A stretch of DNA of 64,000 bases, from the NCBI RefSeq assembly GCF_900149695.1, contig NZ_LT703003.1, forward strand, positions 1,426,001 through 1,490,000. The letters are read 5' to 3'. Numbering within the stretch: the stretch's first letter is position 1; each line of letters begins with the position of its first letter. The notes below the pieces were generated by a model, which did not search any database, was not told the DNA's origin, and saw nothing but the letters and a program-made list of their open reading frames with translations. Positions 1,781 through 31,387 of the stretch are shown in pieces. The DNA is from Anderseniella sp. Alg231-50 (GTDB taxonomy: Bacteria > Pseudomonadota > Alphaproteobacteria > Rhizobiales > Aestuariivirgaceae). A program made the translations under genes and the position numbers.

Positions 1781-1861
1781 CGAGGCAGACCCCGGGATTC
1801 CATGTTGTTCAAGGGTTGAACGGCAGACCTGGGGATACCAACGCGAAAGTGTTCTAAACCC

Positions 1862-3037
1862 ATGCCGGTTCAACTTTCCTGCGAACTTAGCCTGCTGATG
1901 GCGGCCTGTGAATCGGATATGGCCTTTGTTGCGGCTCATGACCGGTTGCGTGACCGGATTGACTGGCAGCGGTTCGGTTCGCTGGCACGGGCACACAAGC
2001 TCGGTGCGCTGGCAGCCACGAGGATCAGCCGGGCAGGTCTGGCCATGGTGCCGGAAGAAACAATGCTCATGCTGGACTGCTACCGGCGTGACATCGTCAC
2101 CCGAAACCTCGCCCAGGAAGTGGGCACAGTGCAGGTGATCCAGTTGCTTGCGGCGGCAGGCGTTCGCGCCCTGGCGTTCAAGGGAGTTGCGGCGGGCCGC
2201 CTGCTGCATGGCGATGTGCATAACCAGCGCGTGTCCAGCGATATCGACATTCTGGTGGCGGCAGAGGACATGGCATCCGCCGAAGCCGCACTTGCCGCTG
2301 CCGGCTACCGCAAGGACTGGCCGGGTTTCGAGGTGAACTCGCGGGCGCAACCGACACTGATGTACCTGGCACACGCGTTCACATGGGTATCGCCTGACAT
2401 GGGGCTGGCGGTCGAATTGCATCATCGCCTGACCCACAATCCATATTGGTTTGATGTCCGGTTTGACCGGTTGTGGCAGGCCGCCGAGAAGGTTGCCCTG
2501 CAGGTCGGCAATATCCGCACACTCGGCCCGGCTGACATGGCTGCCTACATGTGTTGTCACGCTGTTGATCACAGCTATTTCGTCCTGAAATGGATCGATG
2601 ATGCCGCCAAGGCTGTCACCAGAGCAGAGCAGATGATACCGGATCCGGACTGGTTACCGTCCGAGCTGGGCGCCGTCACCGCAGTTGATCGTACAAAGGA
2701 GCTGGTTGGCGCCCTGTATGCGGGTATTGAGGGTGAAACCGGATTGCCGATACAGGAACGCCGCCTTAGCGCCGGGGTTGCCCGGGCAATAGCCCGGATC
2801 GAGGAGGCAGATTTTGGCGACGACACCCGCCGCCTGGCGGACCTGCCGCGGGAAATTGCCGGAACGGTTCGCAGGGCTGTTCTGGGCGGCTCCCTGAAGG
2901 CTGCCTGGCACGATGTTTTCCAGGTTCTTGCAGACCCGCGCGATGCCCGCGCGCTGGGCCTGGGGCTGGCCTGGCAGCCGCTGTACGCTGTGCTGGGCCT
3001 GCCGTTTTCGGCGTGGCGCTACCTGACCCGCCCGTAA
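1862..3037 (+). CDS. NTP_transf_5 family nucleotidyltransferase
   Basis: The 391-residue protein fits the uncharacterised nucleotidyltransferase family PF14907. It has the lysine motif AFKGVAAGRLLHGD (Lys107) followed by the paired acidic metal site RVSSDIDILV (Asp127, Asp129), the signature of the polymerase-beta fold. Residues 1-80 are helical and the second half is an all-alpha region without further motifs. Such genes recur in lasso-peptide clusters with kinase and PqqD-like genes, and also in exopolysaccharide loci; both contexts are present here. The gene directly upstream of the asparagine-synthetase-like cyclase suggests tailoring of a peptide, for example nucleotidylation. Substrate unknown. 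Confidence 0.75.
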   Translation: MPVQLSCELSLLMAACESDMAFVAAHDRLRDRIDWQRFGSLARAHKLGALAATRISRAGLAMVPEETMLMLDCYRRDIVTRNLAQEVGTVQVIQLLAAAGVRALAFKGVAAGRLLHGDVHNQRVSSDIDILVAAEDMASAEAALAAAGYRKDWPGFEVNSRAQPTLMYLAHAFTWVSPDMGLAVELHHRLTHNPYWFDVRFDRLWQAAEKVALQVGNIRTLGPADMAAYMCCHAVDHSYFVLKWIDDAAKAVTRAEQMIPDPDWLPSELGAVTAVDRTKELVGALYAGIEGETGLPIQERRLSAGVARAIARIEEADFGDDTRRLADLPREIAGTVRRAVLGGSLKAAWHDVFQVLADPRDARALGLGLAWQPLYAVLGLPFSAWRYLTRP

Positions 3038-3181
3038 TGGGTGTGCTCGCTGCTGGTTTATTGCGGAATCTTCCGGTGAAAACCAGGCAGGCGAAGCCCG
3101 AATCAACTGCTACAAGAATTACTGTGCCTGCAGACGCCGGTTTGCAGAAGCAGTGAACAGTGCTGCCATGAGGATGATTGC

Positions 3182-5140
3182 TTGAGCGGGATAGGGGCGA
3201 TTTTCTGGAAGGATGGACGGCCTGCCGAACGCGCAGTGATTGAACGTTTGGGCCAGGGACTGCGTCCATACGGCCGGACAGCGCAGACTGTCCGCACGTC
3301 CGGCTCATGCGGTGTTGTGTTTGCCTTGCGCGGCACAACCGGCATGGACGACAAGGCAAGCCAGCCGCTGCAGGCAAACGACGGCCGGCATTTGTTTGTG
3401 TTTGATGGCCGACTGGCCAACCGGGCGGAAATTGCCCGGGATCTGGGCGGATCGAGCTTCCGGTCAGATAGGGTATCTGATGCCGATCTGGCATTTCAGT
3501 CCTGGCTTATGGGCGGCGATGCTGCTGTAAAAAAATGGTCCGGGGAGTTTTCCTTCATATGCTGGGATGCCCATGAGGAGACCCTTCTGGCATGCCGCGA
3601 TCACATCGGTCTGAGAGCACTGTGTTATCACGAAACGCCACAGCGTGTTGTCGTCGCATCGGCGCCGCGAGCCGTGCTCTCGCTGCCCGATGTCGAGCGT
3701 GCGATAGACGAGCAAAAGATTGCCGACCAGCTTGTGCAGCTGTTCCATGACGGAGAACGCACCTATTACAAGGACATCAGGCGCGTCCTGCCGGGGCATT
3801 TGTTTCGCGTCAGTCCGGCAAAGACGGAGAGCACGAGATACTGGAGTCTCGATGAGGTGCCGGACGTGCGCTATGCGCGCGATGAAGATTATGTGGAGGC
3901 CGGTCTTGAACTGTTCAATGAGGCGGTCAGGTCGCAGGTGGCAGGCGAGCCGCGGGTCGGCACGTTCCTGAGCGGTGGGCTTGATTCATCGTCGGTTGCG
4001 GTAACTGCACTGGATCATTTGTCTGACAACCAGGCCTTGCCGGCGTTTACCTGGGTGCCTTCCAGGGACTGGGACGGTCGCTGCCGGGACGGATCCTACG
4101 GAGATGAAACCCCGTTCATCGAGGATATTTGCAATTTGCACCCGCGCATCAAGCCGCATTTTGTCCGATCGGAAGGTCACGGGCTGTTTCACCAGCTCGA
4201 CGATTTTCTGGACTATTCCGGTGTCGCCCCGCGCAACGCGATCAACCTGTGCTGGATCCACGACATCAACATGGCTGCGCGGGACCAGGGCCTGAATGTT
4301 CTGCTCGATGGCGGCATGGGTAACATGTCGTTGAGCTGGAGCGGCGAGGGGGTTCTGCTCGAACGCTGGCAAAACGGAGATTACGCGAACCTGCTGCGTG
4401 ATGTTTTTGCAGGCCCCGGAGGTGCAAAAGGTGTCTACCGCAGGCTCACTCACATGCTGCTGTTCCGGATTGCACCGGACTGGGTGCATCGACGTTATGC
4501 ACAGCTCAGGGGTGATCGGGGTTCTTTGCCGCTGTGGCGGCGGCGGTCGGTGATCAATCCCGACTTTGCCCGGGAAATGCATGTCGAAGATCGCATGGCG
4601 CACTATGGTTGGGATTTCTTTTCAACACCCGTGCGCGATACCCGGCGCGTCAGAGGGGAGCTCTTTACCGGCAGCTTTTCGCACGAGCGAGCCGATATTC
4701 ACCAGGCGTTGCGTGCCATGTACAATGTCGAGACCAGAGACCCGTTTTCAGACCGCCGGCTTATCGAGTGGTCGCTTGGATTGCCGGAGGCCCAGTCGCG
4801 GCGTTTCGGACAAAACCGCTGGATGATCCGCCGGATGATGCAAGACAAGCTGCCTGCATCGGTTCTCGACAACCCGGGTGGTGGTGAACAGGTAATCGAC
4901 TGGCATGCGCGTCTAACCTGGGACCTGCCGCGCCTTCGCGAAGAGCTGGAAGCACTCTCGGATGACCCGGACACAGCCAGATTTATCGATGTCAAACTCA
5001 TCCAGGCATACCTGGATGACTGGCCTGCTGAAACACCGTTCGGTTCAAAGGACCGCGGCTATGCGTTCATACCTGTCGGCATCTGTTCGGCGATTGCGGC
5101 GGGCCGCCTGGTACGGCGTACCAAGGGATCCAACCGCTAG
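3182..5140 (+). CDS. Asparagine-synthetase-like protein, probable lasso-peptide cyclase (C protein)
   Basis: The 652-residue protein has an N-terminal Ntn/GATase-II-like domain (about 1-220) and a C-terminal adenylating synthetase domain with the PP-loop FLSGGLDSSSVA near residue 262. The N-terminus reads MSGIGAIF: the Cys that must follow Met for glutamine hydrolysis in asparagine synthetase B is Ser, so ammonia release from glutamine is not expected. Loss of this Cys with retention of the ATP-pyrophosphatase site is typical of lasso-peptide macrolactam synthetases, which adenylate an Asp or Glu side chain for attack by the core N-terminal amine. The matching precursor, RRE and protease are at 29192-30464. 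Start is TTG; length fits the family. Confidence 0.8.
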   Translation: MSGIGAIFWKDGRPAERAVIERLGQGLRPYGRTAQTVRTSGSCGVVFALRGTTGMDDKASQPLQANDGRHLFVFDGRLANRAEIARDLGGSSFRSDRVSDADLAFQSWLMGGDAAVKKWSGEFSFICWDAHEETLLACRDHIGLRALCYHETPQRVVVASAPRAVLSLPDVERAIDEQKIADQLVQLFHDGERTYYKDIRRVLPGHLFRVSPAKTESTRYWSLDEVPDVRYARDEDYVEAGLELFNEAVRSQVAGEPRVGTFLSGGLDSSSVAVTALDHLSDNQALPAFTWVPSRDWDGRCRDGSYGDETPFIEDICNLHPRIKPHFVRSEGHGLFHQLDDFLDYSGVAPRNAINLCWIHDINMAARDQGLNVLLDGGMGNMSLSWSGEGVLLERWQNGDYANLLRDVFAGPGGAKGVYRRLTHMLLFRIAPDWVHRRYAQLRGDRGSLPLWRRRSVINPDFAREMHVEDRMAHYGWDFFSTPVRDTRRVRGELFTGSFSHERADIHQALRAMYNVETRDPFSDRRLIEWSLGLPEAQSRRFGQNRWMIRRMMQDKLPASVLDNPGGGEQVIDWHARLTWDLPRLREELEALSDDPDTARFIDVKLIQAYLDDWPAETPFGSKDRGYAFIPVGICSAIAAGRLVRRTKGSNR

Positions 5141-5323
5141 GGGCAGGACTCATTAAACTTGTCCTCCCGCAGAATGGATAATTAATGGATCCGGCGCCCT
5201 AAACCCGTGGGCTGCTCGAAAACAACGCAGGACACGCCGCCAAACGAGCGCTATAAGCACTCGCGACCGCGTTCCATTCCTGTCGTGTTTGCAGGGGCTG
5301 GAATTTTTTAGGAGGGTTTTTCA

Positions 5324-6331: not shown

Positions 6332-6396
6332 CGGCACAGGATCAATGGCCCCGCAAGCCTGATCCGGAAACCTGAACTTCAAGAGAAGAAACCCAA

Positions 6397-7371: not shown

Positions 7372-7523
7372 GCCGCAGTGTACGGCCGGAGGGGTTGCGG
7401 TGTGTTGGAGCAACTTTATGAGTTCGTGTGACCGCATGTTGCTATAGGCTGTATTGCAATCGAATCGGCTGGTGGCCGGTGTTTCGAATTTGCCTGACTA
7501 TTTCGCAGCGGACTGTTCCTGGG

Positions 7524-9287
7524 ATGTCATTCATAAGCTTCATCTTGAGTCTTTGGAAATTCCGCCCGGGCCTGCTGGCCCTGAATGTGGTGCTGCTTGT
7601 CGTGCGAACCCTTGCCGAAGGGCTTGGCCTCATCCTGCTGGTGCCGCTCCTGGCCCTGGTTGGCGTTGCCGCGCAGGGAGAGACGAGCTGGTTCACAGGC
7701 GTTCTCAGTTCCGCGTTTGACCGGCTTGGTCTTGATCTGTCGCTGCGCTCGGTATTGCTGGTTTTTGTGGGGCTGATGGTTGCCCGGGCGGCCGTCGGTT
7801 TTGCATACAACCTCGCGGCTGCCCGGCTGCAGTACAGTTTTCTCCATGAATTGCGGGCGTCAACACATCGCGCGGTTACGCGGGCCAACTGGCCGTTTCT
7901 TGCCATGCAGGACAGCGGCGTGCTCAACCATTCGCTGTCGATACAGTCGGAAAACGCGGCATTCGGTGTCGGTGCCCTGGCCCGGCTTGCGTCCAGCCTG
8001 TTTGCCGTAGCGATCAGCCTGGCAACGGCTCTGCTGATCGATGCGCGCCTGACACTCATCGTTACGGCACTGGCACTGGCAATGGCCCTGCCGATACTGG
8101 GATTTGATTTCAGGGCCTACCGCCTCAGCGAGCGTTCGGTTTCACTGCTGGAAAACCTGTTCAAGCGGTTTCGCCATCAACTTGACGATCTCAAGTCAAT
8201 CAAGTCAGCAGCCGGTGAGGAACAGGCTGACAAACGGTTCGATGATCTGTCGCAGCGATATGTTGAGGCGATGATCCTGCGGGCCAAAAACGGTGCCCAG
8301 GCAGGCCTGGTGCATGATCTCGCGGCGGTTTTCATGCTGGCCGCACTGATCTGGCTGGTGAGTTCCTATTCACAAACACTGAGTGTCGAACCGGTGGCGC
8401 TCATCATCATCTTTGCCCGCCTGTTTCCGCGTGCCGGGGAGTTGCAGCGCGCGGTGCGTGACCTGCTGGCGATGATGCCGGGATGGAGGCGCATTCATGA
8501 CTTGCGCGAAGCAGCGCAAGCTCACGGTGAAAACCTGCCGGCCGGTGCCATGATTTCAGTGCCGTTTCGCGACTCACTTGTGCTTGAGAACGTGGCTTAT
8601 GTTTACCCCAACAGCGAAACACAGGTTCTGCAGGACATCTGCATCGAACTGCCGGCAGGCTCTGCAACCGGGCTTGTCGGCCTGTCGGGTGCGGGCAAGA
8701 CCACCCTGCTTGACCTGATGTCGGGACTGCTGATGCCGACTGGCGGGCGAATTAGTGTCGATGGCGAGGTGCTCGACGACACGCGCCGCAAGGCATGGCG
8801 GCAGACGGTAGCCTACGTTTTGCAGGATGCTCAGCTGGTCAATGAAAATGTCAGGTTCAATGTCGCGCCGTTTGACGACGATCCCGGTGACGCGGAGATC
8901 TGGGCCGCGCTTGAAATGGCCGGGGCCGCCGAAATTGTGCGCAAGCTTCCCGGTGGGCTTGATACCTTGCTGGGTGATCGTGGCAGTCGCCTGTCGCGCG
9001 GCCAGCGCCAGCGAATTTCGCTGGCCAGGGCGCTTTACCTGAAACCCGGCGTGCTGTTTCTGGATGAAGCCACAAGTGCGCTCAATCCTGCCGATGAAGC
9101 GGCTATCGTTGCCACGCTTCAGGGGCTGCGCCCGCACACGACAATTGTCGTCGTCGCGCATCGCCTGTCATCGCTGTCGTGGACCGACAAGCTCTACACA
9201 CTGCAGGACGGCTGCCTGTCAGCCCATGTCCCGTCGCAATCAACCGCCGGTGAAAAACCGGACCTGGTCAGCGGGATGCGATCGTGA
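7524..9287 (+). CDS. ABC exporter, fused permease and ATPase (candidate lasso or polysaccharide exporter)
   Basis: This is a half-transporter of 587 residues: an N-terminal type I exporter membrane domain of about six helices (residues 1-310) and a C-terminal nucleotide-binding domain with Walker A GLSGAGKTTLLDL, signature SRGQRQRISLARAL and Walker B VLFLDEATSAL. The frame is open from 7428, but the ATG at 7524 begins the hydrophobic FISFILSLWKFRPGLL segment and is preferred. No C39 peptidase domain is present, so it is not a double-glycine leader exporter. Candidate cargo is the lasso peptide encoded at 29192 (D-protein role) or an oligosaccharide/lipid substrate of the surrounding polysaccharide genes. 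Confidence 0.82.
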   Translation: MSFISFILSLWKFRPGLLALNVVLLVVRTLAEGLGLILLVPLLALVGVAAQGETSWFTGVLSSAFDRLGLDLSLRSVLLVFVGLMVARAAVGFAYNLAAARLQYSFLHELRASTHRAVTRANWPFLAMQDSGVLNHSLSIQSENAAFGVGALARLASSLFAVAISLATALLIDARLTLIVTALALAMALPILGFDFRAYRLSERSVSLLENLFKRFRHQLDDLKSIKSAAGEEQADKRFDDLSQRYVEAMILRAKNGAQAGLVHDLAAVFMLAALIWLVSSYSQTLSVEPVALIIIFARLFPRAGELQRAVRDLLAMMPGWRRIHDLREAAQAHGENLPAGAMISVPFRDSLVLENVAYVYPNSETQVLQDICIELPAGSATGLVGLSGAGKTTLLDLMSGLLMPTGGRISVDGEVLDDTRRKAWRQTVAYVLQDAQLVNENVRFNVAPFDDDPGDAEIWAALEMAGAAEIVRKLPGGLDTLLGDRGSRLSRGQRQRISLARALYLKPGVLFLDEATSALNPADEAAIVATLQGLRPHTTIVVVAHRLSSLSWTDKLYTLQDGCLSAHVPSQSTAGEKPDLVSGMRS

Positions 9288-9639
9288 AAGCCGGATGCGT
9301 GTATCCGTTTGGTTGAGGGATTGGCAAGCGTTGTTGGTTGCCGGTCTTGTCAGGTGGCCAGTTAGCAATTTGGTGGCTGGCTGGCGCCGGGATTGATTGT
9401 ATCCGTCCCACTGCCGCAAGAGAATTTTGTGAGTTCGGCAATGTTGATGCACATAAGTCTGGGTCTGACCCAAACCTTTGGGGTGTTCGTCTTGAAAGCC
9501 ACGATAAATATTCCAAGCCAGATTTTTAAGGTGAGGCAAGGATTTGATGATTCTGGTTAATCGACGATTAAAGTCAGGCGGCGGGTACCTTTAATGTGTA
9601 GTCAACAAGAGCTGTACCCGCCAAAACCCTGATCTTCAC
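9288..9639. other. 352-nt intergenic region between convergent ABC and giant RTX genes
   Basis: No convincing gene is visible; short open frames here have no family signature or ribosome binding site. The only structure I recognise is the inverted repeat at 9580-9622 near the end of the giant gene. The stretch is less GC-rich than its neighbours. Confidence 0.6.
9580..9622 (-). terminator. 9-bp inverted repeat downstream of the giant RTX gene
   Basis: GGCGGGTAC at 9580-9588 is repeated as GTACCCGCC at 9614-9622, a perfect 9-bp inverted repeat with a 25-nt loop. It lies 18 nt beyond the stop codon of the - strand giant gene. Without a strong T-run it would be an imperfect intrinsic terminator or an mRNA 3' stabilising hairpin. 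Confidence 0.4.
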
Positions 9640-21600: not shown

Positions 21601-21885
21601 GGTGTCGTCAAACTCGCCGTCATTGTACGCCAGGATGTCGCTGCCGGCGCCGCCAACCGCCAGTGTGGTGTCATTGGCATCGTAAATGACGATGTCATCG
21701 CCGTCGCCGGCGTCGATTATGTCGTCGCCGAGACCACCATCGATCCAGTCATTGTCATCGCCACCATTGATGATGTCGTTGCCGTCATTGCCATTGATGG
21801 TGTCATCCCCGGCAAATCCGTTAATCGTGTCGTTACCGGATGTTCCATCGAGGATATTGTCGTTGCCGTCGCCGTCTATACTCAT
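9640..21885 (-). CDS. Giant RTX/VCBS repeat surface or secreted protein (4081 aa)
   Basis: One uninterrupted frame encodes about 4081 residues. In order: an N-terminal RTX block with GGxGxD nonapeptides (1-90); some twenty VCBS-type repeats marked by VTEDGG...SGTLTISDVDTGEE, TYGSLTIDAAGNWTYTLDN and DGTTHDITVTITGTNDAA; a PA14 domain (about 1975-2125); thrombospondin-type-3-like calcium motifs (DIDDDNDGIID and DSDNDGITD, about 3215-3580); and a C-terminal RTX array (about 3750-4000) ending in a hydrophobic tail FNETDFLV typical of type I secretion signals. Four Trp-rich inserts interrupt individual VCBS repeats. There is no Sec signal peptide. Likely role is calcium-dependent adhesion or matrix formation. 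No secretion ATPase/adaptor pair is adjacent. Confidence 0.88.
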   Translation of the reverse strand: MSIDGDGNDNILDGTSGNDTINGFAGDDTINGNDGNDIINGGDDNDWIDGGLGDDIIDAGDGDDIVIYDANDTTLAVGGAGSDILAYNDGEFDDTRDVSLQGFEFSAERYTDGTDDVYDVYDLSFNYVEERRYHNDGTYTLTVFDFDDTQTWSEWIRIFDAAGNVTYEEFVDDNNGGGGNPNTAPEDFAGVTEDLVLTVTGNLFTDDLINNPAGVYVLTEVAGVAVPGTGTVFIVGTYGTLEVAANGDYSYILDNSLVQDFTADDIIPDTFAYNFTEDGNPLNTDLIVEITGNNDAPVASDNTATVQENITLSATGNVITDDDGFGVDSDIENQPIGIVEVNSINLNPTGTTLVAGTYGTLTIDGVTGDYTYDLDNNLPAVQALDFGDTLVDSFTYSLTDGSVVTTADLDVTIEGSDVSVQAFADVNSVTEDDVVAATGNVLDNDSGVGITVINVDSTAVATSGDTVIAGAYGTLTISADGNYSYLVDPASSAAQELKDGETLTETFTYTAENTFNNTENSNLTITINGVNDVAVVTGDDTAEVTEDLGNPPFDLGILVVNDADAGESSFQAGNYNGTYGVVALTAAGSYTYTLNNSDLLVQSLGAGITATDTVTVQAFDGSTHNVTVTITGVNDVAVVGGDDQASVTEDDDPLTLTDSGVLTVADVDTGEAEFNPETIAGTYGSLTIDALGNWTYSADNTPLVIQQLGATATLTETITVSTLDGTTHNIDVVINGTNDAAIIGGVDTGSVKEEDDPVTLTTTGTLTISDIDLGEEVFNANTTPGSYGSLTIDALGNWTYSADNTLPAIQALGEGSSLIDTITIQSIDGTTHDVTVTINGTNDAAVISVGVLPEVTEDDAPVTLTGLGTINITDVDTGEAQFTPGNLNGLYGVLTLDAAGNASYAADNTQTVIQSLGAGSTLTDTITVTSVDGTTFDVNVVINGTNDAAIIAGVDTGDVTEDGGLAEVASGTLTISDVDTGEELFTTGAAAGTYGSLTIDATGNWTYTLDNANTAVQALPAGATINDTVTVAAIDGTTHDIIVTITGTNDAAVIAGVDTGDVTEDGGVLQVTSGTLTISDVDTGEELFKPGTYSPGIVEYNGETQLSVNQDNAYQFSDGVNPPVVLTQSGTEVGPDRYAGWSALQVEATDTGFDVLWQGPNDVYAVWQTDAAGVYITSTPYSPASLPSLEPQFSADLDGDGFIEGETAPQLHAGAYGSVTIDASGAWTYTLDNANATVQALPVGATLNDTVTVFAVDGTAHDITVTITGTNDAAVIAGADTGNVTEDGGVLQVTSGTLTISDVDTGEELFKPGTYGPMTVESNGEIQLSVNQANAYEFSDGVNPPVVLTSSGTDVGPDRWVGWSALQVEATDTGFTVLWQGPNDVYTVWQVDATGAFISSSTLSPAALPGLEPVFAADLDGDGFIEGEAAPQLHAGTYGSLTIDAAGAWTYTLDNDNATVQALPLGATLNDTITVMAVDGTTHDITVTVTGTNDAAVIAGVDTGNVTEDGGVAEVTSGTLTISDVDTGEELFSNGNAAGTYGSLTIDAAGNWTYTLDNANAAVQALPLNATMNDVVTVTAIDGTTHDITVTITGTNDAAVIAGVDTGNVTEDGGVLQVTSGTLTISDIDTGEELFTAGGATGTFGSVTIDANGNWTYTLDNANAAVQALPLNATMNDVVTVTAIDGTTHDITITITGINDAAVIGGDDQGAVTEDNDPLTLTDTGLLSISDVDTGEAVFTAETIVGTLGSLTIDAAGSWTYTADNTQTAIQSLGQGETATDTITVSAVDGTTHNIDVVITGINDAPETGVDDIGTIVSTGTTILISTLLANDTDAEGDTLSLTEIDGSAIAPGGSVVVRDGTVTMSADGTTLTFVPTPSYSGPTSFNYTASDGIDTGEGTVTTVVEAVAGDDSLVVSEDAFGTVNVLANDDVIIEFVTGFTITTQPANGSLVVNPDLSVTYTPDPDYNGPDQFEYQFTGMSAGLEYEFYRRAPDDDTVHNITDENLTATGIATEFNVSEIAFDFQNNTNTYGFRYTGHIYIETPGLYTFSTTSDDGSNLSIDGNEIVDNDGVHGAVTESGQLNVVAPGYYPIEILFFQDRGDDLLEVTVSGPDTGNVEMDLFASGLVGHSLRTDTATIDITVNPVNDAAAIAGVVDGSVIEDETAPDLTTSGTLTISDIDDPSEETFVAGTFNGTVGDITIDAAGNWTYTAQSDNSAIQALGAGETLIDTVTVSSVDGTQQDIIITITGTNDAAVIGGGDTGGVIEDGGAAEAVSGALTISDVDTGEELFTNGTVAGTYGSLTIDANGNWTYTLDNADAAVQALPLGTTLNDTVTVSAIDGTTHDINITITGTNDAAVITGVDTGNVTEDGGVLQVTSGTLAISDVDTAEAFFVAGPPIGTIVEANGEIQLSVNQANAYEFSDGVGAPVTLTSGGTDVGPDRWVGWSALQVEATDTGFTVLWQGPNDVYTVWQVDASGAFISSSTYSPTALPGFEPVFAADFDGDGLAGTELATHHYAGSYGLLVIDSAGAWTYTLDNDNAAVQALPAGTTMNDIVTVSAKDGTTHDITVTITGTNDAAVVGGVDTGDVTEDGGVAEVTSGTLTISDVDTGEELFTAGAAVGTYGALTIDAAGNWTYTLDNANAAVQALPLNATMNDTVTVAAIDGTTHDIIVTITGTNDAAMVGGVDTGDVTEDGGVLQAASGTLTISDIDTGEELFTVGTTAGTYGSVAIDAAGNWTYTLDNANATVQALPHGTTLNDTVTVTAVDGTTHDITITITGTNDAAVIAGVDTGNVTEDGGVLQVTSGILTISDVDTGEELFKPGTYSPTIIEYNGETQLSVNQDNAYEFSDGVNPPVVLTQSGTNVGPDRYVGWSALQVEATDTGFDVLWQGPNDVYTVWQTDAAGVYITSTPYSPASLPGLEPDFAADLDGDGFIEGEAAPQLQAGTYGSVTIDTAGAWTYTLDNTNAAVQALPLGATMNDTVTVMAIDGTTHDITVTITGTNDAAVVGGVDTGDVTEDGGVAEVTTGTLTISDVDTGEELFTGGNVAGTYGSLAIDTAGNWTYTLDNANAAVQALAANATLNDVVTVTAVDGTTHDITVTINGANDAAVAADEAPVVVAPGQTVNIDVLANDTDPDDVSLAVTGIIDPADPAIVLQFDGSSQVTLASGTVIELMGDGTLNVTEGVIPADIETFQYQLTSGDGDIAQATVTLHIDSDGDTIANLVDIDDDNDGIIDINEAVQSTGSDSGIDGALLSGDVSFGISSADLNDQDGDHVLTSVTVNGKTFTDFVLPDSYGHNFTASVDLTYQKDGSTEASFSGSADWNADILPAFQSTDLNDYQESSSDFNAGDYYELNYNTPLFVTAGTFVGVTERGGNNPVEIRAYDDQGNPLGDKILVSGTDYLDTGARQNSTQNAEMAIYALDDLAPVGSDIASIRVFIPDNSGGPDGKVFVFGDGVAFGGGNRLDIDSDNDGITDNVEAQATDNYIAPSGVDLDQDGLDDAYDANVGSTDAGLSAGLTPVDTDGDGFADYVDFNSDNDALNDAEERGDGGPTSSTSTADADGDGLLDVFEGSDVNDGFDVNDENIDDVSGDFNLGGVPNLLPDGSNADASIDLSFRDVNDAPVAEDNAAGVSEDTNLDHTGNVLTDDDGAGVDSDVEGDSLIVTNAGQNPVPLFGSLTIVGVYGTLQITRSGSYTYTLDNANVAVQALAAGETFTEVFDYEISDGSLTSTANLTITINGTADAPVITQGDGNDNDLFGADNNDIIDGLDSNDTITGFGGDDTLNGDGGDDMLNGGAGADTLNGGSGSDTLIGGAGADDLDGGSDFDWVSYRTATEAVTVNLADTSLNTGDAAGDQYTAVEMFEGSAFDDTLTGDDTTNFLAGGEGDDILIGGAGNDALIGGLGADVLNGGEGFDNISYVFAASGVTVDLSNSANNTGEAFGDTFIDVEMVQGSAFGDTITGDAGVNWIHGHTGNDVIDGGAGADILFGNDGSDTLTGGTGADTFYFFTDETGTDTITDFEDDVDQLNLQYLGLFSTTQQVLDAASSNGADTVIDLGGGDSIVLQNFAFSNFNETDFLV
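12540..20290 (-). repeat. VCBS repeat-coding array with four Trp-rich insert modules
   Basis: Inside the giant gene, units of about 300 nt recur with high nucleotide similarity, for example the stretch encoding NATVQAL-P-GAT-NDTVTV. Four longer units contain an extra module of about 125 residues with GWSALQVEATDTGF, VLWQGPNDVY and VWQ-DA-G. They lie near 13040-13420, 14330-14700, 17570-17950 and 18240-18615. The outer two (NGETQLSVNQDNAY, ITSTPYSP) resemble each other, and so do the inner two (NGEIQLSVNQANAY, FISSST). Such near-identical DNA invites unequal recombination and assembly error. Confidence 0.8.
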
Positions 21886-23052: not shown

Positions 23053-23123
23053 AAATTAACCCGGTCAGGATTCACTGCTCGCATGGCTGTGCACGAATTG
23101 TCGTGTGCTGCGGGAGAGTTAGT

Positions 23124-26100
23124 ATGAGTGACGGCGTTGGTTTTAATGTTTTTGATTTGGGCGAAACGCCTGAATTCATTGACGAAATAGCACTTGTTCC
23201 AAACCTGGACCTGACAGCAGGGACGCAGGTTGAAGTGGTCTTTCCCGCTATGGGGGAAGGGTCCGGGGAAACCGTGACATTTACCCTGGCAAGCGATACG
23301 CCGGCAGGACAACCTATAGTAGTAGACGTTCAGACCGGTGAAAACCGTTCGGTTGGTGAACACGGGGTAAACGATGCCTGGATTCGCCTCGATACCGCTG
23401 TTGCATCAATCGAGCAGGCGGAATTGACGCCGGGAACCGGTTCGAATGCTTCCAACCCAGTGGCCGTTCAAACAAGCGCCGCAGTGTCGGCTGAGCTGCT
23501 TGATGCAGCAGGCGATGCCGGCCTGCAAGTGGTGTTTGTCGACGCCAGCGCAGACAACGTGCAGCAACTGATCGACGGCATTGATCCGTCTTTTGAAGTT
23601 CACATCATTGAGGCAGACCAGGACGGCGTTGCCTTCATGGCGTCTGTTCTGGAAGGCCGCTCCGGCATTGACGCCGTGCACATCGTTTCACACGGCCAGT
23701 CCGGCCAGCTGCAACTTGGCAGCACCATGGTGGATGCTCACAGTATTGCCGGCGGCCAGGCGCAGTCCTGGGCCCAGATTGGCGGCAGCCTGGCAGATAC
23801 CGGCGATATACTGGTCTATGGCTGTGATTTTGGTGAAGGCCGGCTTGGAAGCCTGACGATCGAAGCCCTGTCCGAGGCCACCGGTGCCGATGTTGCGGCG
23901 TCCGATGATGATACCGGTTCTGCCGCGCTTGGTGGTGACTGGGAACTCGAAGTGTCGACGGGTAGTGTCGAGACAGAAACCATTTCCGTTGAAGAGTTCG
24001 ACGGCCTGCTGGAACTGGACCAGTCTGAAGTCGTGGTTCCGGCAACCAACCAGGCAGATACTCTGGCGCAGAACATTTTTGGTGCGGGCGTCACCATCAA
24101 TTCGGCCTCCTATACCGGCGCAGCATCCCAGGCAGCAACATTTTCCGGCGCCCTGGATGGGTTGGGTTCCGAGTTTCTCGGGTTTGATTCCGGGGTGATT
24201 TTCTCGACAGGCAACGCCAATGGCATTGTCGGAACTGCCGATGCGGGCAATTTCGGCACAGACATAACCGATCCCGGTGCCACTGATGGCGACCCGGACT
24301 TCAATTCCCTCGAAAACGGTATCAGTACGTTCGATGCCTCTTTCCTGGAAGCGAATATCACGTCTACTACGGGCGTGCTGACCCTGCAGTTTGTGTTCGG
24401 CTCGGACGAATACAATGAGTACGTCTATGCAGGGTTCAACGATTCCATCGGCATCTGGATCAATGGCGTCAACTATGCCGTGACGACGGACGGCCAGCAG
24501 GTCGGCATCGACACGATCAACAGTGCCGGAACCATTAATCCGACCAGCAACCAAAGCGATGATGCAAACGATCCGAACTCGACCCACGATCCCACGGACG
24601 GTGTATATGAATCAGCCAACCAGTCGCTGCACGTTACCCGTACCACCGAGCCAACCCAGATGGATGGCTATACAACCACGATTTCGGTCAACATAAACCT
24701 GCAGATCGGGGTCGCGACAGACATCAAGATCGGCATCGCAGATACCGGTGACGCAATTTATGATTCCTGGCTGATTGTCCGGGAAAACAGCTTTGAGAGC
24801 GTGCTTGCCGCCTTCGAGGACGAGGTCGTGACAACGCCGAATACAAGTGTGGTCATTTCCCCGCTGGACAATGATTTCAGCGAAACCTACACCGCAGCCG
24901 ACCTGACCATCACGAAAATCAATGGTGTGGACGTGATTGTGGGTCAACAGGTTGCTCTGCCCTCAGGGGTCCTCGTTACCCTCAATAACGACAAGACACT
25001 GACCGTCGATCCGGACGGCAATGCCCTCTCGCATGACACGTTCACATACGAGATAACAGACCCGGATGGACAGACCGCAGTCGGCCTCGTCGGAATGAAC
25101 ACCAATGGAGCGCCGTTGCTGAACCTCGATCCGGACAATTCCGGCGGCGGGTTCGACAATCGCGGGTTTGACGCCTTTTTCAATACCAGCACAGGCGATG
25201 CAGTAAACATTGCCGACAGCGATGTTGACATAACCGACCTGAACTCACCGAATCTGACTTCCATGACCATCAACGTGTCCGATGTGGTGGATGGCAACGA
25301 TGAGGTCTTGAACATTGGCGGGGTGAATTTTGCACTGGTCACGGGCGTTACCGGCACGCTTGTTACTGCCGATGGCGTCAATTTCCTGGTGGATTATGAT
25401 GTCAGCGGTACACCAGATGCCTTCTCCATTACTGTGCAGGGCGGCGGTACGGCTTCCCAGGCAGCCTGGGAAGCACTTATTGCATCAATCACCTACGACA
25501 ATGCGAGCCCGACAGCGACGCTCGGCAACCGTGAATTCGATATTTTTGTCAATGATGGCACCGGCAACTCCAATGTCGGTGAAGCCATCGTTCACGTTGC
25601 ATCACCAAACGCGACGATTGGCGGAACCGATACGGGATCTGTCACCGAAGACTCCGCTCCGTTCAGCCTGACCACCGGCGGTACACTGACCATAGCAGAT
25701 CCTGACAATGGCCAGGCCCAGTTCATCTCCAGCACCTATGGCGGTACGTACGGCGATGTCACCATCAATCCACTGGGTGGCTGGACATACACGGCGAGCA
25801 ATCTCAATCCCGTGATCGATGCGCTGGACGCAGGTGAAACACTGACCGACGTCATCAGCGTCACTTCGGTGGACGGGACGAGCCACGACATAACCATCAC
25901 GATCAACGGCGCCAATGATGCTCCGGTCGCAAATCCGGACCTGCTGACGGTAGACTCCAATGATACTGAACCGACGACCGGCAACGTCCTTACCGACGGT
26001 TCGCCCGATTATGATCCTGAAGGCGACGTGCTGACGGTCATCGAGATCAACGGTGCTGCTGCCGACATTGGTAATCAGGTAACGCTTGATTCCGGCGCGC

Positions 26101-29100
26101 TGGTGACACTCAACTCGGACGGTACCTACAGCTATGATCCGAACGGGTCATTCGAGCAGGTACAGCTGGGCAGTTCGATTACCGATTCATTCACCTATAC
26201 CATTGACGACGAAAGCGGCCTTACGGATACCGTGACGGTGACCATCGTCGTCAATGGAACCAATGAAGCCCCGAGTCTTGACCTCAATGCGGCGGACAAC
26301 GCCGCTCCGGTGTCCCCGTCAGATGATTTTGAAGGCGGCAGCTACCCGAGCAGCGGGTCCAACTGGACATCTGACTGGACCGAGTCATCCATAGGCGGCG
26401 CGAACGGCAGCGATATCAATGTCGAAGCGGACGCCGGTGACAACTCACTCACACTGAAGGACGATGGTGCCAGGGCGACCCGCTCCGCAGACCTGACGGG
26501 AGCTGAAACGGCTTCTCTCAGCTTTGACTATCGGCGCGACGGTTTTGACGACAGCAACGACTTCGTTCGCGTGATGGTGTCGTCGGACGGCATAAATTTT
26601 GTCGAGATTGGTGTCCTGTCCGGTCCGGCGAACGATAGTGCCTATCAGACCTTTACGGCCGACATCAGCGCGTATGTTTCTCCAGATTTTGCCGTGCGGT
26701 TCGAGACCTCCGGAAACTTCAACAACGGCGGTGACAAGGTCTGGATCGACAATGTCGACATATCGACAACATTTACGCCTCCTGTTGATTTTGCGGCAAG
26801 CGTCGACAACACCAATGCGCAGGTTGCCATAGCCAGTCCGGATGTGGATGTCCAGGACCCGAATGACACGCAGATCGAATCCGCCAATATCGTCATCACC
26901 AATGCGCAAGTGGGTGATCTGCTTGCCGTTTCTGGCTCGCTGCCGGGCGGCATCACCGCGTCTGCCTATAATGCATCGACCGGCGAATTGACGCTGAGCG
27001 GCACTGCTACTCTCGCTGATTACGAGCAGGCAATCGAACAGATTCAGTTCTCGACCTATTCGAATGTCTATACGGATCGCGCAATTGAAGTGACTGTCAA
27101 TGACGGTGGTCTTGATTCAAATGTCGCCACCTCGGTCATTACCGTCAACAATGTAAATGACTGGCCTGTTGTGGCATCGAATTCCATTACCGTTGATGAA
27201 GAAACAGCAGATACGTCTCTTGGCCTGTCTGCAAGTGATCCCAACGGCAATCCGCTGACCATCACTGTTTCCGGTCTGCCTACGCTCGGCACAGTGACAC
27301 TGGCTGACGGGTCGCCTGTTTCCGACGGCCAGACATTGTCCCAGACCCAGCTTGCCGGCCTGCAGTATGATGCGCCGGCTGACTACAATGGCACCGATGA
27401 TCCAGGTGATTTCACTTATACGGTCAGCGACGGTATCGCGTCCGTGACCGGCTCGGTGGACATCACGCTCAATCCCATAAATGATGACCCTGTGGCAAAT
27501 GCCGATACGCTGACAGTTGGTGAGGATGATACCGTTGCCACTTCCGGCAATGTCATCACCAATGACACAGACATTGACGGTGATACGCCGCTGACGGTGA
27601 CTGAAGTCAATGGCAACGCCGGTGACGTGGGCAACCAGGTTACCCTGGCCTCTGGCGCGCTGCTGACGCTGAATTCCGATGGCAGCTATGATTATGATCC
27701 GAACGGCGCGTTCGAGGACACAGCTCTCGGTGACACTGCAACCGACACGTTCAGCTATGTGGTGTCCGATGGTAATGGTGGGTCTGATACGGCAACCGTT
27801 ACTGTGACCATCGACGGGGAAAATGATGACCCTGTGGGCAACGCCGACACCCTGACAGTCGGTGAGGATGACACCGTTGCCAGCTCCGGCAATGTTATCA
27901 CCAACGACACGGATATTGATGGTGATACGCCGCTGACGGTAACTGAAGTCAACGGCAGCGCCGGTGACGTGGGCAACCAGATTACCCTGTCCTCCGGCGC
28001 GCTGCTGACCCTGAATTCCGATGGCAGCTATGATTATGATCCGAACGGCGCGTTCGAGGACACTGCAGCGAGTGAGACTGCAACCGACACGTTCAGCTAC
28101 GTGGTGTCTGACGGCAATGGAGGGTCCGACACAGCAACCGTCACTATTACCATCAACGGGGAAAATGATATCCCGACAGAAATCACGGAATCATACGCCG
28201 AGTCGTATCGCGAAGCCCTGATCAATTGCGGAATCTGGAGCAGTTTTGATGTTCTGGCTGGCTCCGTGCTGGTGGACCTGGACAATGTGGTTGATGGTGA
28301 TGTGAACGACTCCCACACATTCAGTTTCGTGGATGGTACGGGTAGTCCTGTCACGGATCCGGATCTGGCGATCGTCAACAACGAACTGGTGGTCCGCGCC
28401 GACGCTTCACTGGTGTCCGGTACAATAACCAGCCGTACAGTCATCGTCCGTGTGGACGACGGCAATGGCGGGGTCGTCGATCAGACTTACAGCTTCGACT
28501 TGCGCCTGAACACGGGCCCGTATACCGGTTCAGCCACCCATGACATCGGGTTGGGCACAGTCGCTTCGGACACCATGCAGGGCGGAGACGGCCTGGACAG
28601 GCTGTTCGGCAATGACGGCAACGACTTTCTGTTTGGAGAAGCAGGTAGCGATATGCTGGAAGGAGGCGCCGGCGCCGATGCGCTCGATGGCGGCAGCGGT
28701 CGAGACGTCGCCTCGTACATGGAGTCTGCTGTTGGCGTGACCGTCGATCTGCTGAATGCCGGAGCTAATACCGGAGATGCGGCTGGTGACAGTTTCATCA
28801 GTATTGAAGGGCTTTGGGGATCCAGTTTTGACGACAATCTCCATGGCGACAACAACGACAATACGATTATCGGCTCTTATGGCGACGACGTCATAGTTGG
28901 TCGCGGCGGCAATGACCTTCTCCAGGGCGGCGAGGGCAATGACATTTTCACCTTCAACAATGCTGATGGCGATGACAGAATAATGGACTTTGCGGCAGGG
29001 GCTGGCCTGGGAGATGTTGTAGATGTGTCCGACTATGGATTTGCTGATTTCGTCACGCTGCAATCAGCGATGAGTGTCGTCGACGGCCACGTGGTGCTTC

Positions 29101-29180
29101 AGCTTGATGCGAACAACAGTGTTCAGTTCTGGGGAATTAGCAACATAAGCCAGCTTCACGCCAATGACTTTGTTCTTTGA
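23124..29180 (+). CDS. Large DUF4347 / choice-of-anchor / cadherin-like / RTX protein (2018 aa)
   Basis: The ATG at 23124 follows GGGAGAG and is preferred over the upstream in-frame TTG. Domains in order: an N-terminal stretch without Sec signal; a DUF4347 domain (about 135-285) with AVHIVSHGQSG (His190) and ILVYGCDFGEG (Cys234); a choice-of-anchor L-like domain (about 305-570) marked by FVFGSDEYNEYVYAGFNDS; VCBS and cadherin-like repeats; a jelly-roll-like segment (about 1075-1210); two nearly identical 114-residue repeats; and a C-terminal RTX array (about 1812-1945) with GGDGLDRLFGNDGNDFL. The C-terminal about 70 residues resemble a type I secretion signal. Probable extracellular adhesin. 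Its stop lies 11 nt from the convergent lasso precursor gene. Confidence 0.88.
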   Translation: MSDGVGFNVFDLGETPEFIDEIALVPNLDLTAGTQVEVVFPAMGEGSGETVTFTLASDTPAGQPIVVDVQTGENRSVGEHGVNDAWIRLDTAVASIEQAELTPGTGSNASNPVAVQTSAAVSAELLDAAGDAGLQVVFVDASADNVQQLIDGIDPSFEVHIIEADQDGVAFMASVLEGRSGIDAVHIVSHGQSGQLQLGSTMVDAHSIAGGQAQSWAQIGGSLADTGDILVYGCDFGEGRLGSLTIEALSEATGADVAASDDDTGSAALGGDWELEVSTGSVETETISVEEFDGLLELDQSEVVVPATNQADTLAQNIFGAGVTINSASYTGAASQAATFSGALDGLGSEFLGFDSGVIFSTGNANGIVGTADAGNFGTDITDPGATDGDPDFNSLENGISTFDASFLEANITSTTGVLTLQFVFGSDEYNEYVYAGFNDSIGIWINGVNYAVTTDGQQVGIDTINSAGTINPTSNQSDDANDPNSTHDPTDGVYESANQSLHVTRTTEPTQMDGYTTTISVNINLQIGVATDIKIGIADTGDAIYDSWLIVRENSFESVLAAFEDEVVTTPNTSVVISPLDNDFSETYTAADLTITKINGVDVIVGQQVALPSGVLVTLNNDKTLTVDPDGNALSHDTFTYEITDPDGQTAVGLVGMNTNGAPLLNLDPDNSGGGFDNRGFDAFFNTSTGDAVNIADSDVDITDLNSPNLTSMTINVSDVVDGNDEVLNIGGVNFALVTGVTGTLVTADGVNFLVDYDVSGTPDAFSITVQGGGTASQAAWEALIASITYDNASPTATLGNREFDIFVNDGTGNSNVGEAIVHVASPNATIGGTDTGSVTEDSAPFSLTTGGTLTIADPDNGQAQFISSTYGGTYGDVTINPLGGWTYTASNLNPVIDALDAGETLTDVISVTSVDGTSHDITITINGANDAPVANPDLLTVDSNDTEPTTGNVLTDGSPDYDPEGDVLTVIEINGAAADIGNQVTLDSGALVTLNSDGTYSYDPNGSFEQVQLGSSITDSFTYTIDDESGLTDTVTVTIVVNGTNEAPSLDLNAADNAAPVSPSDDFEGGSYPSSGSNWTSDWTESSIGGANGSDINVEADAGDNSLTLKDDGARATRSADLTGAETASLSFDYRRDGFDDSNDFVRVMVSSDGINFVEIGVLSGPANDSAYQTFTADISAYVSPDFAVRFETSGNFNNGGDKVWIDNVDISTTFTPPVDFAASVDNTNAQVAIASPDVDVQDPNDTQIESANIVITNAQVGDLLAVSGSLPGGITASAYNASTGELTLSGTATLADYEQAIEQIQFSTYSNVYTDRAIEVTVNDGGLDSNVATSVITVNNVNDWPVVASNSITVDEETADTSLGLSASDPNGNPLTITVSGLPTLGTVTLADGSPVSDGQTLSQTQLAGLQYDAPADYNGTDDPGDFTYTVSDGIASVTGSVDITLNPINDDPVANADTLTVGEDDTVATSGNVITNDTDIDGDTPLTVTEVNGNAGDVGNQVTLASGALLTLNSDGSYDYDPNGAFEDTALGDTATDTFSYVVSDGNGGSDTATVTVTIDGENDDPVGNADTLTVGEDDTVASSGNVITNDTDIDGDTPLTVTEVNGSAGDVGNQITLSSGALLTLNSDGSYDYDPNGAFEDTAASETATDTFSYVVSDGNGGSDTATVTITINGENDIPTEITESYAESYREALINCGIWSSFDVLAGSVLVDLDNVVDGDVNDSHTFSFVDGTGSPVTDPDLAIVNNELVVRADASLVSGTITSRTVIVRVDDGNGGVVDQTYSFDLRLNTGPYTGSATHDIGLGTVASDTMQGGDGLDRLFGNDGNDFLFGEAGSDMLEGGAGADALDGGSGRDVASYMESAVGVTVDLLNAGANTGDAAGDSFISIEGLWGSSFDDNLHGDNNDNTIIGSYGDDVIVGRGGNDLLQGGEGNDIFTFNNADGDDRIMDFAAGAGLGDVVDVSDYGFADFVTLQSAMSVVDGHVVLQLDANNSVQFWGISNISQLHANDFVL
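27480..28163 (+). repeat. Tandem duplication, 2 x 342 bp, within the DUF4347/RTX gene
   Basis: Copies at 27480-27821 and 27822-28163 both start with AATGATGACCC and encode a 114-residue cadherin-like unit containing NADTLTVGEDDTVA, NVITNDTDIDGDTPLTVTEVNG and SDGSYDYDPNGAFEDTA. The two DNA copies differ at scattered, mostly third-codon positions, so the duplication is recent or homogenised by gene conversion. The boundary of a third, diverged unit follows at 28164. Confidence 0.85.
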
Positions 29181-29191
29181 GTCTGGCGTCC

Positions 29192-29380
29192 TTACGGGTC
29201 GCAACGGAATCCATCAGGAGTGAAGCAGTTATCGACTCCTGCCGACGCAAACCCGCCTTGGGTGATCGCAGCAATGTTATTGATATGAAGGCACGGCCGG
29301 GACCATTCACGTGGTTCAAATACCTGCCGTACTATCGGTGCATTTTCTGTCGGTAACCGGAAACGGTTCAAAGCTCTCAT
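29192..29380 (-). CDS. Lasso-peptide precursor (A protein), 62 aa with a 21-aa predicted core
   Basis: The ATG at 29380 follows TGAGGA with 7-nt spacing; the frame is open to 29455, giving an 87-residue alternative. The leader (1-41) ends in EWSRPCLHINNIAAITQ, matching the lasso leader pattern Y/W-x2-P-x-L...T-x, with Thr40 at position -2. The core (42-62) starts with Gly; its ring segment GGFASAGVD places Asp at position 9, the expected isopeptide acceptor. The tail segment NCFTPDGFRCDP has two Cys (core 11 and 19) able to form a disulfide. It lies in the same orientation as, and downstream of, the kinase, PqqD-like and B2 genes. The pattern match and context together make this a strong assignment, although precursors usually lie first in the operon. 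Confidence 0.85.
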   Translation of the reverse strand: MRALNRFRLPTENAPIVRQVFEPREWSRPCLHINNIAAITQGGFASAGVDNCFTPDGFRCDP

Positions 29381-29456
29381 GTGCCAATCCTCAACGCACC
29401 CGGCGTTGCGTGTGTACATTGCATGCTCACATCCGTTGGTGAGCCTGGAACTCATA

Positions 29457-29737: not shown

Positions 29738-30202
29738 CTAAAGCCTTGATATGCCGCTCTCCAGCGGCATGGGTGAAAACGCTTCCAGATCGGGCAGCTT
29801 GCCGGTGACGACAAGATCGCCGCTGGTCAGCCAGGCGTGTGCTTCAAGCTCACCTGTGGCATTTTTCCGGACACCGATGTTGAGTTTGTAGCTTCGTTCG
29901 ATGCGGTCCAGCCACATCGACCCCGCCATTGCCTGCAGCAGGCAGTCCGACCGCCACGGCACGCGTGAGCCGGCTGAACTTATGGCCCACCCGATAAGAT
30001 CGGTTTCCGCGGCTGTCGCAGCGGACGCGGACCTGGTTGTTTGAAAGCGCTGCAGCACGGCCTTGATGGGCTTGCGGCGGTGTTCACCGCGCGCCCTCGC
30101 CAATAGCCAGGTCGCCGTCAGCAGTGCCTTCCACTGCATGGCGGACAGGCGGCCTGCGCGTTGCCAGAGCCCGTCAGCGGACTTTGACAAGGCCGTTCTC
30201 AA
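29738..30202 (-). CDS. Lasso-peptide B2 protein, transglutaminase-like leader peptidase
   Basis: The 154-residue protein matches the lasso B2 family. The N-terminal half is helical and basic; the second half holds RSDCLLQAMAGSMWLDR with the nucleophile Cys87, then LNIGVRK and ELEAHAWLTSGDLVVTG with His122. The spacing of Cys, the IGV strand and the HAW motif is characteristic of McjB-type cysteine proteases, which cut the leader after the T-x dipeptide and deliver the core to the cyclase. The start is uncertain: TTG at 30202 overlaps the PqqD-like gene by 29 nt, and another TTG lies 12 nt inward. Overlap implies translational coupling. Confidence 0.85.
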   Translation of the reverse strand: MRTALSKSADGLWQRAGRLSAMQWKALLTATWLLARARGEHRRKPIKAVLQRFQTTRSASAATAAETDLIGWAISSAGSRVPWRSDCLLQAMAGSMWLDRIERSYKLNIGVRKNATGELEAHAWLTSGDLVVTGKLPDLEAFSPMPLESGISRL

Positions 30203-30464
30203 TCAGCTCGGCAATAAAATCGCGGGTGTCGCTTTCGCACTGTTCACGCTCAACGTCGTATTCCTTGACCAGCGAGGTGCAAATATCGTCAAGCGTGACC
30301 TCCTCGCTCAGCTTTTCCCATATCTGCCGGGCCGGGCCCTCCAGTCCGTAATACACCCCGCGCTCGGCGTCGAGCAGCACGGTATCATCGGGCCCCAGCT
30401 CCGCTGCAGGCAGCTGGCTGGTGCGGATCAGGATGCTGTCAGATTTTATGTTTTGCTGGCTCAT
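30174..30464 (-). CDS. PqqD-like RiPP recognition element (lasso B1 protein)
   Basis: This 96-residue protein has the PqqD/RRE fold signature: an N-terminal beta segment with DTVLLDAERGVYYGLEGPARQIWEKL, followed by TLDDICTSLVKEYDVE and a C-terminal helix with FIAELIENGLV. Stand-alone RREs in lasso clusters bind the precursor leader and present it to the B2 protease and the cyclase. It starts within the last 4 nt of the upstream kinase gene (ATGA overlap) and overlaps the protease gene, so all three are one transcript. Confidence 0.88.
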   Translation of the reverse strand: MSQQNIKSDSILIRTSQLPAAELGPDDTVLLDAERGVYYGLEGPARQIWEKLSEEVTLDDICTSLVKEYDVEREQCESDTRDFIAELIENGLVKVR

Positions 30465-31387
30465 GTGCCAAAGGTGTCCCGGACGTGTGAAATAATCAAG
30501 TTCATGCAGTGCTCATGACGGTCTTTGTTGCGCGGCCTGACCAGATGGAAGGCCGGTACGCTGCCACACAGGCCTGCCGCCCATGTCATGAATTGCTGTT
30601 CCCGGCCCAATGCCTCGATCAGATGGGTAAGCGACACATCCCGCCGCAGGCGCATCATGGCATTGAGCTGGCCCATGGGTGTGATGACCGGTTCCGCCGT
30701 CTCGTCGTCGTGCCAGTCGGTGAAATACAGTCCGGCCATCGGGCGGGGGAGCAGGCTGTAGGCGTCAGGCACCAGGTGAATATGCTTGCCGAACCGGTAT
30801 GAGTCCACTGCCAGGTGGTCATCACCAAGCCCCGTCATTTCGCCGGATTGCTGATACAGGTGCAATGCCGGTATCGACGGTGCAGCCAGGTAGGGATGTT
30901 CAGCTGTTGAGTGAATGGTCAGCCTGTCGTCGGTGAACAGGCCGAAGCCCGCCATCTGGAAACTGGCTGCAAGGGTGGACTTGCCGTCGCCGGCGTTGCC
31001 GCAAAACGCCACGCTGCCCTTGGGTGTGTCCACGGCTGCACAATGCAGCGGAATATAATCGCGTTGATGCAGCAGGCATCCGAGGCCGGCCGAAAGAGCA
31101 AACAGTCGGGCTGCCGGTTCATTGTGGGCGCCGCCGGGATCGATGCTGACCCGGTTTCCAGCTTCAATATGGCAACGAATGCCGTTGTCCAGTGCAATCA
31201 GGATTTCATTGCTGCCCACCAGATATCCGTCTTTGGTGACGGTATGGTGGTCGATCGTGGCGGGCAGGTCCCGCATCACCATCTCAACAGGCGTCTTATC
31301 CAGTACCTGCTGCGCCTGTCTGGGAGGCAGTTCAGGAATGTCAAAGCCTGATTCGAGCAGGAGGCCGTGGACACAGTATTGAGGCAT
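30461..31387 (-). CDS. HPr-kinase-like protein of the lasso cassette (candidate peptide kinase)
   Basis: The 308-residue protein resembles the catalytic domain of HPr kinase/phosphorylase. Walker A is [15 protein letters not shown] (residues 129-143), after an HCAAVD strand, and is followed by GLFTDDRLTIH with the catalytic Asp pair (153-154). The first 110 residues form a family-specific N-terminal domain. HPrK-like proteins in lasso clusters phosphorylate the peptide, in paeninodin at a C-terminal Ser; related HprK-related kinase A proteins occur with PqqD-like and nucleotidyltransferase genes. The predicted core here ends in Pro, so the target may differ. First gene of the - strand cassette, divergent from the ABM gene. 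Confidence 0.83.
   Translation of the reverse strand: MPQYCVHGLLLESGFDIPELPPRQAQQVLDKTPVEMVMRDLPATIDHHTVTKDGYLVGSNEILIALDNGIRCHIEAGNRVSIDPGGAHNEPAARLFALSAGLGCLLHQRDYIPLHCAAVDTPKGSVAFCGNAGDGKSTLAASFQMAGFGLFTDDRLTIHSTAEHPYLAAPSIPALHLYQQSGEMTGLGDDHLAVDSYRFGKHIHLVPDAYSLLPRPMAGLYFTDWHDDETAEPVITPMGQLNAMMRLRRDVSLTHLIEALGREQQFMTWAAGLCGSVPAFHLVRPRNKDRHEHCMNLIISHVRDTFGT

Follow-up and report, generated by a model that had tools for sequence, protein, structure and literature searches.

The question raised by this locus is whether a frame of 62 codons, found behind genes for a kinase, an RRE and a B2 leader peptidase, codes for a lasso-peptide precursor, and if so which enzymes would mature it. The window analysed is a stretch of 64,000 nucleotides from Anderseniella sp. 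Alg231-50 (contig NZ_LT703003.1, positions 1,426,001 to 1,490,000), the genus being placed in the Hyphomicrobiales, Parvibaculaceae. The answer favoured here, with a probability of roughly 0.88, is that the frame, called A1, is a genuine lasso precursor matured by the adjacent RRE/B2 pair. The first-pass annotation had proposed a lasso precursor, and this is supported by orthologues without a frameshift, by an RRE and a B2 of lasso type, and by a probable lasso-type cyclase in the same syntenic region. It had missed the cyclase, which is not adjacent, the sister precursors, and the absence from A1 of the C-terminal Ser of the paeninodin type.

A1 has its ATG start codon at 29380 and its stop at 29194-29192. 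The gene order on the minus strand is kinase, RRE, B2 and then, after a gap of 357 bp, A1, so that its earlier description as a gene downstream of these three on the same strand is exact; the kinase, RRE and B2 genes overlap one another. A distance of 11 bp separates the end of A1 from the stop codon of a giant RTX/cadherin gene that converges on it (Table 1). The six frames of the window were searched for a strict lasso pattern (Y/W..P.[LIV], T.G, and D/E at 8/9, near a stop). The single match is A1, with its W-x2-P-x-L, T(-2), G1 and D9 as originally read, where a first-order Markov null gives an expectation of 0.08 per window. The fixed register of W(-16), P(-13), L(-11), T(-2), G1 and D/E8-9 had 0 matches in three simulated 4.6-Mb genomes. 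No protein family model matches A1, which is a short frame, and promoter and terminator consensus scans around it are close to chance level.

Table 1. Features of the A1 locus and of the related loci. Locations without a prefix are positions in the window.
Feature	Location	Strand	Evidence and remarks
Putative lasso precursor A1	29192..29380	-	62 aa, ATG start; single strict motif match in window, orthologues, signs of purifying selection
A1 leader MRALNRFRLPTENAPIVRQVFEPREWSRPCLHINNIAAITQ	29258..29380	-	41 aa; predicted RRE-binding motif W(-16)SRP(-13)CL(-11), T(-2); invariant positions, motif type as in PMC13381572
A1 core GGFASAGVDNCFTPDGFRCDP	29195..29257	-	predicted Gly1-Asp9 ring; Cys11/Cys19 outside ring; invariant ring Ser5
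GAGG ribosome-binding motif of A1	29389..29392	-	kept in 4/4 species
B2 leader peptidase (Transglut_core3)	29738..30202	-	NF033537 71 bits, cut-off 33; PF13471; Cys87/His122 invariant
Discrete RRE (B1, PqqD-like)	30174..30464	-	top NCBIfam model lasso PqqD; TbiB1 (5v1u) E 6e-9
HprK-like kinase K1	30461..31387	-	Walker A GNAGDGKST, DD motif; model resembles PEPCK/HprK structures
Probable lasso macrolactam synthetase (C)	3182..5140	+	Asn-synthase domain, SGGLDSS, without N-terminal catalytic Cys; syntenic orthologues
NTP_transf_5, tailoring family	1862..3037	+	also in phospho-lasso clusters
MsbA/HepA-type ABC transporter, candidate exporter (D)	7428..9287	+	family and synteny
Giant RTX/cadherin repeat protein	9640-21885	-	4081 residues
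Giant RTX/cadherin repeat protein	23103-29180	+	2025 residues
A3 precursor-like ORF	9362..9502	-	46 aa, GTG start; ...VWVRPRLMCINIAELTK (leader), FSCGSGTDTINPGASQPPNC (core); orthologue at syntenic place in G001
A2 precursor	contig C4, L061:12713-12901	-	...RKTWTKPQLRLVPILAITR (leader), GSLPHNTNDNPIFPQELGPS (core); C-terminal Ser; core identical in three species
Second HprK-like kinase K2	L061:14458-15393		neighbour of A2
A4 family	L148:5006-5146, L149:8058-8240, G003:C33:22971-23078	all -	core start NGxSSC[AV]DG
G002 precursor-like ORFs	G002:C241:20560-20652, G002:C199:2205-2285	both -	same leader motif

Orthologues of A1 are found at the same place in three other Anderseniella (G005, 74% identity; G003, 69%; G001, 56%), and there are no stops or frameshifts in any of the four species. 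The invariant residues are W26, R28, P29, L31, I39 and T40 (that is, T-2) in the leader, G42 and G43 (G1, G2), S46 (S5) and G48-C52 (G7 V8 D9 N10 C11) in the core, and D56-G57, R59-C60 (C19) and P62 at the core end. Frameshifts in relatives, or loss of Thr(-2), Gly1 and Asp9 among homologues, had been named in the first-pass annotation as grounds for doubting A1; the three orthologues have no frameshift and all three residues are invariant. The A1 frame alone is open in all four orthologues, the other frames on both strands being interrupted in the relatives. The pn/ps ratio over residues 25-62 (the C-terminal half) is 0.15-0.34, and A1 is, to judge by its substitutions, under purifying selection. 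Two further contigs, one stopping inside B2 (G004) and the other just behind the kinase (G002), do not inform on the presence of A1. When the A1 profile was run against 385 alphaproteobacterial genomes, only weak matches (E 0.001 or worse) were obtained outside the source genome. Ten weak matches were inspected, and are either other coding frames or do not have the W..P.L motif, T(-2) or the core pattern. A weak match in G006:C120 (42% over 45 residues) was dropped, the core pattern being missing.

The monoisotopic mass of the product was computed as 2113.8622 Da for the lasso and 2111.8466 Da with a disulfide, in agreement with the values of 2113.86 and 2111.85 Da calculated previously by hand. 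C11 and C19 are the only Cys pair of the core, and both are outside the predicted ring. If oxidised, they would make A1 class IV-like, by cysteine placement only, and a Cys11-Cys19 disulfide in the tail of the product is reasonably probable. The C-terminus is DP or QP in the four species. Because the C-terminal Ser that was looked for is absent, A1 is classed on its sequence as not paeninodin-like.

The RRE and B2 next to A1 are, from their matches, of lasso type. B2 is the only PF13471 gene in the source genome, where no other B2 was found, and in each of the five genomes where it was found there is exactly one Transglut_core3 gene, beside the RRE and K1. A search of PDB sequences with B2 gave zero matches. 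The RRE scores 58 bits against lasso_PqqD_Bac, below the cut-off of 80 of this exception model, and is above the cut-off of the PqqD Pfam model. Among solved structures it is closest to TbiB1, a lasso RRE (5v1u), and it also matches 9x90, an RRE of paeninodin type whose structure was determined together with a WxxPxL leader (PMC13381572). The source genome has six PqqD-like genes besides this RRE.

A1 is not the only precursor of its kind. A profile built from the four A1 sequences gave as its second match in the source genome A2, at a weak E of 0.015. The stop of A2 is 3 bp ahead of the start of a second cyclase-like gene, and its neighbours include K2. With A2 added, the profile found A3 in the window and A4 in G004 and G005; one more round of profile building brought in an A4 copy in G003 (E 3e-8) and two precursors in G002 (E 0.004 and 0.067). 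W(-16), P(-13) and T(-2) are common to all of the related precursors, as is a hydrophobic side chain at -11. They are present in 6/6 Anderseniella genomes and in 0/63 other genomes of the family (E <= 0.01), a count that is not independent, the profile having been built from Anderseniella itself. In simulation, the expectation for a more general motif is 2-5 matches per random genome, and the A3, A4 and G002 copies therefore rest on conservation and context. The A4 copies are at unrelated places in three species, with no lasso enzymes nearby; Asn at core position 1, as in A4, would be unusual.

Some details of these surroundings are worth recording. A3 is flanked by the ABC transporter gene and a giant rtxA gene, and its counterpart in G001 starts with Leu1. 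The two giant RTX/cadherin repeat proteins of the window flank A3 and A1, and A2 likewise adjoins an RTX gene. G002 is the most distant Anderseniella, and its ORF on contig C199 has a cyclase fragment on one side and a DUF218 gene on the other. A palindrome-like TTAATCGTCGATTAA is present upstream of A3 (window 9557-9571), within 25 bp of sequence that G001 shares exactly, with a similar TTAATCGTTGAT upstream of A2; these are possible operators. There are no repeats of TTAATCGTCGATTAA elsewhere in the window.

The sister precursors also have a bearing on the kinase. K1 is below the cut-off of every family model, and a PDB sequence search with it gave zero matches. Its predicted structure (mean pLDDT 71) matches PEPCK and HprK/P chains with E values of 1e-6 to 6e-4 and low TM-scores, which places the fold in PEPCK/HprK at the superfamily level only, with medium confidence. 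K2 keeps motifs equivalent to the Walker A and DD pair of K1. Kinases of the paeninodin type modify a C-terminal Ser (PMC9266682), and in a proteobacterial precursor the residue phosphorylated by BsfK is Ser3, which lies within the predicted ring (PMC10368454). Ser or Thr occupies core position 5 in the five families that have no C-terminal Ser (A1, A3, A4 and the two G002 precursors). A2, which ends in Ser and is accompanied by a kinase of its own, has His at this position. When the ring residues are shuffled, such agreement arises at any position with a probability of about 0.002, or 0.004 if residue 1 is kept in place; the pattern was seen before testing and five families are few, and 0.002 is thus optimistic. 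Given that all precursors without a C-terminal Ser have Ser or Thr at ring position 5, the kinase may phosphorylate the ring. For A1 itself, we rate phosphorylation of Ser5 by K1 at a little short of even chances; on this reading, the predicted target of K1 is Ser5, and that of K2 the Ser at the C-terminus of A2. It could instead be that K1 does not act on A1, and is either a remnant or a modifier of the sister precursors only. The DP or QP ending, without the Ser used by paeninodin-type kinases, would suit this, as would the second kinase beside the Ser-ending A2. It agrees less well with a K1 that keeps its Walker A and DD motifs intact and is 61-88% identical across five relatives, with the invariance of Ser5 in A1, or with the ring Ser targeted by BsfK, and is in our judgement appreciable but rather doubtful.

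No cyclase was found beside B2, and the candidate is 25 kb from A1. The top model for this protein is the lasso cyclase NF033535 (E 1e-82), although its score of 279 bits falls short of the model's cut-off, 525. Its N-terminus, MSGIGAIF, is missing the catalytic Cys of glutamine amidotransferases, while SGGLDSS (SGGxDS) is intact. The source genome has two full-length genes with an Asn-synthase domain, one of them this candidate, three more matches being short and weak. The candidate's membership in the lasso pathway is probable on this evidence, if formally below the cut-off. The gene is in a plus-strand run (431-9287) with genes for a UDP-sugar dehydrogenase, NTP_transf_5, an epimerase and the ABC transporter, and the run could serve for the addition of sugar to the peptide, or could be a polysaccharide locus. 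PsmN is a precedent for NTP_transf_5 in phospho-lasso clusters (PMC9266682). In G001, one contig has ugd, NTP_transf_5, cyclase, epimerase, ABC transporter and rtxA, and a second has rtxA, DUF218, rtxB, precursor, B2, RRE and kinase, in both cases in the order of the window. Both end in the giant rtxA gene, and we infer that they adjoin across it. G004 keeps the kinase, RRE and B2; a full cyclase gene was not found there, and the contig ends before the precursor.

We consider it likely that A1 pairs with this cyclase. The distance of 25 kb, the operon shared with nucleotide-sugar genes and the score below the lasso cut-off would suit a cyclase of some other pathway, in which case the RRE, kinase and B2 would turn A1 into a RiPP that is linear or modified in some other way, for example a phosphopeptide; the LPP family provides kinase-RRE systems that have no lasso enzymes (PMC13381572). 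However, the family model makes B2 lasso-specific, the lasso cyclase is by far the top model for the candidate, in which the amidotransferase Cys is missing, G1 and D9 of the core are invariant, and a second cyclase-like gene stands directly behind the sister precursor A2, all of which makes a non-lasso product improbable. That A1 is an intergenic frame left open by chance, short and unmatched by protein family models as it is, is very improbable, in view of its presence in four species, its synonymous-biased change, the conserved ribosome-binding motif and the fixed motif register.

For A1 as a lasso precursor, the following pathway is proposed. The RRE would bind the leader motif W(-16)xxP(-13)xL(-11), and K1 would most likely phosphorylate ring Ser5 ahead of cleavage, in the manner of BsfK on its ring Ser3. 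B2 would then cleave after residue -1 with T(-2) as a guide, and the cyclase would activate Asp9 by adenylation and link it to the Gly1 amino group, closing the ring around the threaded tail. The two cysteines, Cys11 and Cys19, would probably oxidise to the class IV-like tail disulfide, and the ABC transporter of the cyclase operon would probably export the product.

The locus resembles several known systems in part. It shares with paeninodin and pseudomycoidin the split RRE/B2, the HprK-like kinase, an NTP transferase gene and the WxxPxL leader motif, but differs in having no C-terminal Ser, two cysteines, a cyclase 25 kb off and an alphaproteobacterial host. The Bsf system of Bradymonas sediminis (PMC10368454) is similar in its Gram-negative host, discrete B1 and B2, low-similarity HprK-like kinase, Ser in the predicted ring and absence of a C-terminal Ser; it has YxxPxL, Ile(-2), Asp8 and Ser3, whereas A1 has WxxPxL, Thr(-2), Asp9 and Ser5. 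Class IV peptides (LP2006, pandonodin and the felipeptins) have, like A1, one Cys pair with both Cys outside the ring, but their clusters are without tailoring genes beyond the basic set (PMC9266682), apart from a predicted oxidoreductase for the felipeptins, whereas A1 has a kinase and an NTP transferase. The LPP family of RiPPs in Bacillota (PMC13381572) has an HprK-like kinase, a discrete RRE, an NTP transferase, an MsbA-like transporter and several precursors, but uses an SpI-type peptidase and has neither the lasso B2 nor a cyclase. In a literature search, no paper was found that names both Anderseniella and lasso peptides. A search for orphan or dispersed lasso precursors returned nothing relevant, which is weak evidence, subscription journals being thinly covered.

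The less expected part of the finding is the dispersed arrangement. The source genome contains at least three precursors that share a leader, beside a single B2 and a pair of cyclase-like genes. Since the search for B2 genes gave no second one here, the B2 of the window would serve A2 and A3 too; the six other PqqD-like genes make sharing of the RRE less certain. We tentatively suggest, at somewhat less than even odds, that Anderseniella has a dispersed system, in which one RRE/B2 pair matures scattered precursors that have only the W(-16)xxP(-13)x[LVF](-11)/T(-2) leader in common, and in which the kinase linked to the RRE adds phosphate at position 5 of the ring, to give disulfide-bearing phospho-lasso peptides. 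The cores of such a system would differ in size, in N-terminal residue (Gly, Phe, Leu or Asn) and in cysteine pattern.

A1 adds to a marine alphaproteobacterial genus a well-conserved lasso family, in which class IV-like cysteines are combined with a kinase. The dispersed pattern would matter more, in that tools expecting precursor, peptidase and cyclase to be adjacent would tend to miss such systems. Several cores on one shared leader would be a natural test of the core variation accepted by one leader-processing pair, and the Ser/Thr pattern at position 5 makes the target of the kinase directly testable.
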